Source of the DNA: Rhodospirillales bacterium
Lineage (GTDB): Bacteria > Pseudomonadota > Alphaproteobacteria > Acetobacterales > Acetobacteraceae
Assembly (NCBI GenBank): GCA_018971905.1
Contig: JAGWZS010000022.1
Coordinates: forward strand, 1 to 13,154
Direction: 5' to 3'
Length of the DNA stretch: 13,154 nucleotides
Part shown: positions 937 through 13,154 of the stretch, in pieces
Layout: each line of letters opens with the position of its first letter
Numbering within the stretch: the first letter of the stretch is position 1
Translations under genes and position numbers: made by a program
Notes under the pieces: model-generated
The model's input: the letters and a program-made list of their open reading frames with translations, nothing else
What the model was told of the DNA's origin: nothing
The model's database searches: none

Positions 937-2112
937 ATGTCCGGCACCACAATCACATCCAGCGGCACCTCGGCCCTGCTGCTTGCCGCGGCGGGGCCCG
1001 CGCCTGTTACCATCGCCACTGGGGTGAGTATCGTTCTTTCGGGCAGCGTGGCGGCGGATAACAGCCTTGCCAGCGCCGTTTATGGCGGGCCCGGCGGGGG
1101 CTGGAGCGTGCTGAACGAAGGCACACTGGGGGCCGGTGTTACGCTGGCCTCTGGCATGGCGGCGGGCACGGGGCTGGAGTTTGCCGGCGCGGGCAGCGCC
1201 ACCAATGGGCTGGCCGGGGTGATCGAGGGCAACGCGGAAGGGCTGGCGCTGCTGGCCGGCGGCAATGTGGTTAACCGGGGCACCATTTCCGGCGGCATGG
1301 GCGCTGGCGGCACCGGGCTGGGGCGCATTGGCGTACAGCTTGGCGGCGCCACGCTGCAGAATAACGGGCTGGTGCAGGGCGGGGCTTACGGTGTGAGCCT
1401 GGGTGCGGCGGCCGGGGCGGCGAATAACGACATGATCACGGGTGGTGAGGCCGGGGCGGTGCTTGCCACTGGCGCCAGCCTGGCCAATGCAGCGGGGGCG
1501 GTGATAACCGGGGGTGCCGCGGGCGCGGTGCTGCGGGCCGGGGCCAGCCTGGCCAATGCAGGCAGCATTGAGGCAGCGGGGCACCAGGGCGTGCTGCTGG
1601 CGGGCGGGGCTTACCTGGCCAACCGGGGCAGCATCAGCGGGTTCGACGGGGTGTGGGGTGCATCTGGCACCGCCACGCTGATGAACGACGGCTGGATCAG
1701 CAGTGGCGGCTCGCTGGGCTTGCCGCTCACGTCCACCGGCTACAGCTTTTTCAGCGGCGCGGCGGTTGAGCTGACCAGTACCACAATCATCAACCAGGGC
1801 GTGATGCAGGGCAATAATGTGCCGCCGGATGCGCTGATGCAGGCGGGCTCGGCGGGCAGCGGGCTGGTGCTGGGGGCGGGCACGCTGATGAACCTGGGCA
1901 CGCTGGCGGGCGGCGGCGGGGCCTATGCCACCCATGGCGGGCTGGGGCTGGCCGGGGCGGCGCAGCTTGCCGGGTATAATGCCGGGCGGATAGACGGCGG
2001 CAGCGGCACCTATGGCGGCGCGGGGGCCATGCTGTTTGGCGGCTCGCTGCTGAATGCCGGCAGCATTCTGGGGGCAATGGCGTTGTTTCCGGCGGGGATG
2101 GGGTGGTGCTGA
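937..2112 (+). CDS. Glycine-rich beta-helix repeat protein, N-terminal part of a frameshifted Hint-domain gene
   Basis: A 391-residue frame made almost wholly of short repeats of about 20-23 residues with a core of hydrophobic-x-N-x-G-x-I/L-x-G (for example LANRGSISG, LQNNGLVQGG, LLNAGSILG). Such repeats typically form right-handed parallel beta-helices in secreted or surface proteins. There is no classical signal peptide; the start MSGTTITSSGT resembles beta-helix proteins that lack one. ATG 937 has a GGGGGAAG ribosome binding site four bases upstream. After residue 379 the repeat pattern collapses into LGAMALFPAGMGWC and a stop. The same repeat pattern continues at once in the frame one base back, which runs through GNGVVSGGDGVVLNNG into the next entry. 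I therefore read 937-3704 as one gene of about 922 residues broken at the five-G run 2070-2074. Function is unknown; a surface structure or adhesin-like role is only a guess. Confidence 0.72.
   Translation: MSGTTITSSGTSALLLAAAGPAPVTIATGVSIVLSGSVAADNSLASAVYGGPGGGWSVLNEGTLGAGVTLASGMAAGTGLEFAGAGSATNGLAGVIEGNAEGLALLAGGNVVNRGTISGGMGAGGTGLGRIGVQLGGATLQNNGLVQGGAYGVSLGAAAGAANNDMITGGEAGAVLATGASLANAAGAVITGGAAGAVLRAGASLANAGSIEAAGHQGVLLAGGAYLANRGSISGFDGVWGASGTATLMNDGWISSGGSLGLPLTSTGYSFFSGAAVELTSTTIINQGVMQGNNVPPDALMQAGSAGSGLVLGAGTLMNLGTLAGGGGAYATHGGLGLAGAAQLAGYNAGRIDGGSGTYGGAGAMLFGGSLLNAGSILGAMALFPAGMGWC
1444..1581 (+). repeat. Two 69-nt tandem repeat units coding for beta-helix coils
   Basis: Two units start at 1444 and 1513, exactly 69 nt (23 residues) apart. 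They share a 19-nt identical core, at 1474-1492 and 1543-1561, which encodes the ASLANA stretch. The exact DNA identity suggests recent duplication within the gene rather than only conserved protein structure. Looser copies of the same motif run through the rest of the beta-helix region. Confidence 0.65.
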
Positions 2113-3704
2113 ACAATGGTGCCACGCTGGTGAACCAGGGCCAGATTACCGGCGGTATCGGCCCGCAATATCTTTGGAATGTGGGGCTGGGCGCGGGCGT
2201 GGCGCTTTATAACGGCGTGCTGGAAAATGCGGGGACACTCTCCGGCGGCGGGCAGCAGCTGATGGGGCTGTGGATGGGCGGCGGCCAGGCCGTGAATACC
2301 GGCACCATCATGGGCCATGCGGCGGTGGCGATGGAGGGTGGCGCACTGGAAAACAGCGCGCTGATTTCCGGCACCGCCATCGGGGTTGACCTGGCCGGGG
2401 GCAGCTTCCTGAATGCCGGCACGGTGGCGGGCAGCTATGCGGTGTACATGGCCAATGCCGGGGCCATGCTTGGCGTGGCGGCGGGGGGTGTGTTCCGGGG
2501 CAAGGTAGCGGACCTTGCGGGCGGGGCTACCTTGCAGCTCACCGGCGCCGCGCCCGGCACGCTGGACATGGGCACGAGCTTCTCCGGCTTTGGCGAGATT
2601 TCCTTCGCCGCGGGGGCGGACTGGGTGCTGGCGGGCGGCACGGCGCAACTGGCGGGCGGCGAGATTATTTCCGGTTTCGCGGGCAACGACACGCTGCTGC
2701 TGGAAGGTTTCACCGCCAGCAGTGAGAGTTTCACCTCCGGCGGCGGGCTGGTGCTGAGCGAGGGCAGCGCCAGCGTGACGCTGGATGTGCAGGCCAGCGC
2801 CCCGCTGTTGGTGAATGACGTGGTGGAGGGCACCCAGATCGTGATCTGCTACCGGCGCGGCACGATGATCCAGACCCTGCATGGCGAGCAGGATGTGGCG
2901 GCGCTGAACATTGGAGACATTCTGCCCACGCGCTTTGGCGGGCTGCGCCGGGTCAAATGGATCGGCCGGCAGAGCTTCAGCCCGGCGGCGGTAGCGGGCA
3001 ACCGGGCGCGTATCCCGGTCTGCATCCACGCTGGCGCGCTGGGCAACGGCCTGCCGCACCGGGCGCTTTACGTGTCACCCGGGCATTCCATGCTGCTGGA
3101 TGGCGTGCTGGTGCTGGCCGCAGCCCTGGTGAACGGCGTGACCATAACGCAGGAATATGATGGCGGGGTGGTTGAATATGTTCTGCCGGAGCTTGAGACC
3201 CACGATTGCCTGCTGGCCGAGGGCGCCTGGAGCGAAAGCTTCGCCGATGGCCCCGGCCTGCGCCGCCAGTTCCACAACCGCGCCGAGTTTCACGCACTTT
3301 TTAAAACCTACCGTGAGCCAGATGGCATTGCCCTTTGCGCCTCCCGGCCACTGGAAGGTGCGGCGTTGGAGGCAGCCTTGCGCCCGGTGCTGGCGGGGGC
3401 GGCGCCAGCACCAGGGGTGTTCAGGGGCTGTGTGGATGTGGCGGATGGCTGGCGCGTAGAGGGCTGGGCGCAGGACATGGCCTGGCCTGAGTTTCCGCAG
3501 CATCTGGAATTTTATGCCGGCCGCCGCAAGCTGGGCGAGGCGCTGGCCTGCCATTTCCGGGAGGATTTGGCCAAAGCGGGCATAGGCGCCGGGCGGGCGG
3601 CGTTCAGCTTTCTGGCCCCGCGCCGTTTCAGGCCGGAAAACCTGCTGGTTTGCCGCACGGGGGATGGCGCCCAGATTTACGCCGCCACCCGGTGCGCGGC
3701 CTGA
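2103..3704 (+). CDS. Hint-domain protein, C-terminal part of the frameshifted beta-helix gene
   Basis: A 533-residue frame overlapping the previous one by 10 nt. Residues 1-125 continue the N-x-G-x-I repeats. Residues 183-235 (GGEIISGFAGNDTLLLEGF) resemble the linker that ends such beta-helices. Residues 243-385 match the bacterial Hint_2 type: the likely N-terminal nucleophile Cys249 in CYRRGTMI, then ALNIGD, VKWIGR, SPGHSMLLDG (His328), LVNGVTI and ELETHDCLLAEG. Hint folds in hedgehog proteins and inteins cleave their own peptide bond; whether this one does is unknown. Residues 439-533 form a separate module (VEGWAQD, then CHFREDLAKAGIGAGRAAF) that I associate with Acetobacteraceae surface and glycosylation proteins. 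The first ATG (2103) has no convincing ribosome binding site and starts in the middle of a repeat, so it is unlikely to be a natural start. If the frame is restored the whole protein has about 922 residues. Confidence 0.75.
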   Translation: MVLNNGATLVNQGQITGGIGPQYLWNVGLGAGVALYNGVLENAGTLSGGGQQLMGLWMGGGQAVNTGTIMGHAAVAMEGGALENSALISGTAIGVDLAGGSFLNAGTVAGSYAVYMANAGAMLGVAAGGVFRGKVADLAGGATLQLTGAAPGTLDMGTSFSGFGEISFAAGADWVLAGGTAQLAGGEIISGFAGNDTLLLEGFTASSESFTSGGGLVLSEGSASVTLDVQASAPLLVNDVVEGTQIVICYRRGTMIQTLHGEQDVAALNIGDILPTRFGGLRRVKWIGRQSFSPAAVAGNRARIPVCIHAGALGNGLPHRALYVSPGHSMLLDGVLVLAAALVNGVTITQEYDGGVVEYVLPELETHDCLLAEGAWSESFADGPGLRRQFHNRAEFHALFKTYREPDGIALCASRPLEGAALEAALRPVLAGAAPAPGVFRGCVDVADGWRVEGWAQDMAWPEFPQHLEFYAGRRKLGEALACHFREDLAKAGIGAGRAAFSFLAPRRFRPENLLVCRTGDGAQIYAATRCAA

Positions 3705-12679: not shown

Positions 12680-13154
12680 ATGAAGGGGCAGGAATATTTT
12701 CTGGCGCGGCAGCCGATTTTGAATGAGCGGCAAACGCTGGTTGCCTACGAACTTCTGTTTCGAAGCAGTACTGAAAACCACGCGGTGATTGCTGATGACA
12801 TGTCCGCCAGCATGGCGGTGATTCAACATGCGTTTCTGACCCTTGGCGTGGATACGGCGCTGAACGGTAAACCCGCCTTCATCAATATCTCCGAGGATTT
12901 GCTGCTGAGCGACCTGCTGGAGATTCTTCCCGCCGATAAGGTGGTGCTGGAATTATTGGAAACAGTGCCCCGAACCGAAGCGGTGATTAACCGCTGCATG
13001 GCCTTGCGGGAGGCAGGGTTTCGCTTTGCCATCGACGATGTGATGGAGGATGACGAGGCGCTGCACAAAATTCTGCCCGTGGTGGATATTGTGAAGGTGG
13101 ATATGCTTGGCGTGAACATGGACAATCTGTTTTCCATCGCGCAGCGTGTCCGCG
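12680..13154 (+). CDS. EAL/HDOD-type signal transduction protein, N-terminal part (partial)
   Basis: The gene runs off the right edge. 158 codons are visible, starting MKGQEYFLARQPILN. FLARQPIL followed by LVAYELLFRSS is the hallmark opening of the YuxH-like proteins that join a degenerate EAL domain to an HDOD domain. The visible part is the EAL-like domain: YELLFR replaces the catalytic EAL, FINISEDLL follows, VLELLETV stands where active enzymes have the metal-binding ExxE, and FAIDDVMEDDEAL and VDIVKVDML fit the later strands. The altered motifs imply a regulatory or binding role rather than cyclic-di-GMP hydrolysis. The HDOD half would lie beyond the window. ATG 12680 is the only ATG after the in-frame stop at 12638; the ribosome binding site is weak. 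The gene is transcribed away from tamA. Confidence 0.85.
   Translation, partial: MKGQEYFLARQPILNERQTLVAYELLFRSSTENHAVIADDMSASMAVIQHAFLTLGVDTALNGKPAFINISEDLLLSDLLEILPADKVVLELLETVPRTEAVINRCMALREAGFRFAIDDVMEDDEALHKILPVVDIVKVDMLGVNMDNLFSIAQRVR

Follow-up and report, generated by a model that had tools for sequence, protein, structure and literature searches.

Hint domains, in which a conserved cysteine at the start of the domain and conserved histidines have established roles, are known to cleave themselves, and extracellular proteins are a usual target of phase variation. For bacterial intein-like Hint domains, self-cleavage is described in the excerpted text of one study (PMC5874633). An excerpt on contingency loci describes a meningococcal coding poly-C tract that alternates between C5 and C6 (PMC5084427), indicating that short tracts may vary. 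Apparent pseudogenes can result from assembly errors, as an excerpt from a third study documents (PMC11017572). In Acidocella and its relatives, repeat proteins with Hint_2 (PF13403) combine a repeat region, this domain and a C-terminal region.

The gene analyzed here shares all three of these parts with the proteins of Acidocella and relatives but, unlike theirs, it is split at a junction within the repeats, and it is the only copy among the screened loci to be split there. It resembles contingency loci, as far as these are described in the excerpt of PMC5084427, in that the frame changes at a G tract in the gene of a probable surface protein. Unlike in such loci, however, the run is a short one of a kind common in this gene, and it is not conserved. 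With the assembly-derived pseudogenes of the PMC11017572 excerpt it has in common an apparent frameshift in a draft sequence and a whole gene in a near-identical one. It differs from the general error case in that the frame-change rate of its genome is not clearly raised, and we infer the error here. The split gene has little meaning alone; it is a worked case of a draft metagenome genome whose apparent on/off switch finds no support in whole homologues. Should the change in length prove real and reversible, surface-protein switching would become testable in these acidophilic bacteria.

Gene structure and whole homologues

The window, meaning the whole stretch of 13,154 nucleotides that was analyzed, is an entire contig from a 1.98-Mb draft genome (331 contigs, 81% complete). 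The features of the split gene are as follows.

937..2112, forward strand: upstream piece, an open reading frame of 391 aa from the ATG at 937, with the N-terminal glycine-rich N-x-G repeat region
2070..2074, forward strand: five-G run where the reading frame changes, read from the sequence; the tblastn pieces of the homologue P0001 meet here
2073..3704, forward strand: downstream piece, one frame back, with the rest of the repeats, the Hint_2 domain and the C-terminal region
2844..3251, forward strand: Hint_2 domain (PF13403), residues 248-383 of the 533-aa downstream open reading frame, Pfam E 4.4e-36

The list of open reading frames places the stop codon of the first at 2110-2112, and the last 12 or 13 residues of its 391 are in a register that differs from that of the homologues. 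The downstream open reading frame (2103-3704, 533 aa from the GTG at 2103) overlaps the end of the first by ten bases, and its open frame extends upstream past the junction, giving 574 aa from stop to stop. Based on family matches, the neighboring genes are ordinary: a CDP-alcohol phosphatidyltransferase, a DUF2188 protein, a short-chain dehydrogenase, RF3, TamB and an Omp85 protein. An EAL-domain gene at 12680-13154 is truncated by the contig end.

With the second piece as query, a protein search of 8000 scored candidates returned 280 proteins, the best 120 of which were examined. The best match, P0001, is a protein of 926 aa with a Hint_2 domain, encoded on a contig of 13,408 bases (ENA), and is 98% identical over the whole second-piece query. 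It represents a cluster of 20 member sequences, of which the representative alone was examined. In tblastn, P0001 aligns to the window gene as residues 1-383 and 383-926, and the two pieces meet at 2070-2073, indicating one frame change in the gene. Aligned with residues 1-378 of the first piece, P0001 is identical in 368 of 382 columns with one 4-residue gap. Its residues 384-926 agree at 531 of 543 positions with the second frame, read from 2073, and this match starts one residue after the end of the match in the first frame, so that the continuity across the two frames is not accidental. The window gene and P0001 are therefore alike in domain order and homologous over their full length (96% and 98% identity to the two pieces); P0001 differs in its continuous frame and in having four residues more near residue 209.

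The other homologues were compared at the junction with probes from before and after it. Among the best 120 of the 280 proteins, 27 match the after-probe; 11 of these also match the before-probe and 16 match the after-probe only. The probes lie exactly one residue apart in nine of the 11 two-probe proteins (P0001 and P0003-P0010), while P0015 and P0026 have other spacings and their alignments are poorly conserved there. The junction is uninterrupted in nine of the ten closest homologues among the matches listed (P0001-P0010). The tenth, P0002, has a different lesion; it is one of the 16 proteins matching the after-probe only and fits the contig of a related locus, L036. We also screened 49 fetched loci (41 distinct) for frame changes, using the 120 homologues as queries. 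A frame change at the junction was found in L001 and L006 only, each of which is a copy of the window gene itself, in a screen that is not exhaustive, given that a larger break in L036 escaped it.

Two further searches returned nothing related. The first piece as a protein query gave no match at E 0.001 among 8000 scored candidates, probably because of its low-complexity words. Among viral contigs one stretch matched a pattern, and none encodes a relative of P0001.

Two independent genes, with the second starting at the GTG at 2103, would be compatible with the open frame, the possible start and the ten-base overlap noted above. However, the homologues are single proteins across the junction, and the homology of the second frame reaches upstream of this GTG to about 2070, so that we regard the chance of two genes as practically negligible. 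We conclude that 937-3704 is a single gene for a repeat protein of approximately 920-930 aa with Hint_2 near its C-terminal end. In this respect the sequence-only reading was accurate. It had the frame 1 repeats continuing one base back at 2070-2074, as the sequence, the open reading frames and the P0001 alignment all confirm, and it took the locus for a single gene whose frame is broken by one base, which whole homologues such as P0001 bear out. The Hint domain that it placed in the restored protein is the PF13403 match of the second open reading frame, and its estimate of about 922 residues agrees with the 926 aa of P0001 minus the 4-residue difference. Orthologues consisting of two genes with their own starts, which it had named as a refuting outcome, were not seen among the homologues examined.

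Predicted function of the protein

The Pfam profile of PF13403 matches the downstream open reading frame at 124.9 bits, against a curated cut-off of 28.4, and the first piece matches no Pfam family. At E 0.1, NCBIfam returned no match for the first piece, the second piece or P0001, and a PDB sequence search returned none for the second piece. Residues C642, H721 and H760 (P0001 numbering) are invariant in 33 aligned homologues, and the same residues occur in the same context in the second piece of the window. The consensus of these 33 homologues also has conserved GWAQD and ACxYRxDL stretches in the C-terminal region.

The N-x-G repeats suggest a beta-helix fold for the repeat region. Based on the profile match, the conserved cysteine and histidines, and what is known of Hint domains, the intact product is probably a repeat solenoid that is secreted or exposed on the surface, with predicted self-cleavage at the Hint domain. 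Some other Hint_2 proteins among the matches listed carry PF16168 and are named 'autotransporter passenger strand-loop-strand repeat protein'. Their PF16168 matches would fit a solenoid by analogy, and concern those proteins and not the window gene.

Hint_2 was also searched for in 36 genomes of same-genus relatives. At least 24 matches were found in each of three of them (G013, G015 and G032), and a few of the listed matches have an internal stop. Among the literature matches listed for 'Hint domain', no title concerns a Hint_2 repeat gene family in Acidocella.

The G tract as a possible switch

Slipped-strand phase variation at the G run would turn the full-length protein on and off. The run lies exactly where the frame changes, the protein is probably extracellular and would as such be a usual target, and the meningococcal C5/C6 tract (PMC5084427) speaks in favor of variation at short tracts. 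However, the tract consists of five G only, and similar runs occur throughout the gene, which has twelve runs of at least five G, the one at the junction not being the longest. In the window as a whole such runs are rarer than in dinucleotide shuffles: counting both strands, GGGGG occurs 34 times, against a mean of 83.3, and GGGGGG three times, against 26.3, so that both are depleted. The tract is also not conserved, because the related locus L037, which is in frame and keeps a run of five G, has other bases before it. No off-frame copy at the junction was found besides the window's own gene, either in the 49 loci (41 distinct) or among the ten closest homologues, nine of which are continuous. 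With a short, common and non-conserved tract, and no other copy off-frame here among the screened loci, we consider phase variation of this kind highly improbable.

A broader version would combine a real, reversible change at a very short G tract, of which the repeat-rich Hint gene family has many, with entire families of these surface proteins diversified by low-rate slippage and repeat recombination; under this reading the deletion in L036 would be a second example. We think it exceedingly unlikely that the gene works in this way. Any switch at the junction, of whatever kind, is in our judgement very unlikely, a grading that was not computed.

If ribosomes instead underwent programmed -1 frameshifting at the G run, the sequence as it stands would give both a short and a full-length product. 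The direction of the change is indeed -1, and the G run permits single-codon re-pairing. Against this, the zero frame of 937-2112 contains no slippery heptamer of the form X XXY YYZ, and the predicted fold of the 60 and 90 bases from 2076 is like that of shuffled sequences (z -0.34 and -0.22, with pseudoknots outside the model). In addition, close relatives encode the protein in one frame, where a shift is unnecessary, and the split frame is not conserved. With neither a heptamer nor an unusual fold, and with relatives in one frame, -1 slippage has less in its favor than phase variation, and we find it barely credible. Four causes had been proposed from the sequence. Phase variation and -1 slippage are poorly supported by these results, and a sequence error and a loss-of-function mutation remain as candidates.

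Origin of the one-base difference

At the DNA level, the window is one base shorter than L036, L037 and L038 within approximately 10 bases of the G run. Further length differences from L037 and L038 comprise 3 and 12 bases, together with a single base in a stretch of low identity at 3685. Compared with L036, there is an 8-base length difference at 2004, close to the break that L036 itself has. Near 1562 the window has twelve bases (four residues) fewer than L037 and L038, and four residues fewer than P0001, with the frame kept.

We attribute the private one-base difference to a local error in the metagenome assembly of a gene that is rich in repeats and varies among strains, with a probability of about 0.6 (a judgement, not a computed value). 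The contig has one base less near the short G run, which splits the frame; on this reading the base would be absent from the assembly and not from the cell, and the split would not be a regulatory device.

A second draft contig is broken differently. In bases 1-250 of L036 (JAGWIE010000129.1) an early repeat is joined to the region before the junction, with approximately 180 residues gone and the frame changed. The first 50 residues of L036 are those of P0004, which comes from another record and is whole across the L036 break. This break could be a misassembly of repeats or a real repeat deletion. The two draft contigs are thus broken in different ways while each has a whole close counterpart, a pattern consistent with repeats that assemble poorly or vary between strains.

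Whether the genome is generally prone to such errors was assessed with frame-switch screens. A first screen, which gave five pairs from four places within 33.9 kb of aligned sequence, had suggested an error-rich genome; this explanation was dropped because control genomes gave similar rates. Unfiltered, the screen gave 7 sites in 102.0 kb for the window's genome, against 12 in 213.9 kb, 18 in 227.1 kb and 5 in 102.0 kb for the controls. We put the similar rates in the controls down to non-gene open reading frames among the queries, antisense ones above all. The filtered screen, in which the queries were coding-like open reading frames of other genomes and the window's own break was not counted, gave 2 sites in 95.0 kb aligned for the window's genome (from a sample of 260.5 kb, window included). 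The corresponding values for the controls were 2 in 199.2 kb (G034), 6 in 216.4 kb (G007) and 1 in 96.0 kb (G002), together 9 in 511.5 kb; these are small numbers with residual false positives. One of the two sites in the window's genome, L129, has a counterpart in G002, given by the same query at almost the identical residue, and probably does not reflect a lesion. The window's genome is thus not clearly error-rich. This counts against an explanation by general quality, but it does not speak against an error confined to one gene with many repeats.

Selection and divergence along the gene

Based on the Nei-Gojobori method, dN/dS for the first piece is 0.26 against both L037 and L038. For the second piece it is 0.21 against L037, 0.19 against L038 and 0.15 against L036. 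The whole relatives L037 and L038, compared with each other, give similar values, 0.22 and 0.18 for the two parts. Both halves are under purifying selection and no decay is seen. Neither half decays, and the break, if real, is therefore young. An old pseudogene is not indicated, as there is neither relaxed selection (dN/dS 0.15-0.26) nor a second frame change along both pieces.

These values bear on the possibility of a real and recent loss-of-function mutation, after which the cell would make a truncated 391-aa repeat protein without Hint, and little or no Hint piece. The frame-change rate, which is not clearly above that of the controls, means that a general error is not forced. Hint_2 genes are also multicopy, with six matches in the window's genome, so one loss could be tolerated. 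On the other side, the P0001 matches (residues 1-383 and 383-926) show no second frame change, selection is not relaxed, and the near-identical P0001 is whole, as are eight further close homologues, points that nevertheless leave room for a very young mutation. We hold such a mutation to be possible, at clearly less than even odds. An assembly error and a real loss of function are alike in every test made, and a very recent mutation would look identical to an error.

Divergence is uneven along 937-3704. At synonymous sites the first piece diverges from L037 and L038 by 0.36 and 0.38, approximately half as much as the second (0.69 and 0.75). DNA identity, which is 87-92% at 1601-2200, amounts to 61-72% from position 3401 onward. 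This pattern is possibly due to gene conversion.
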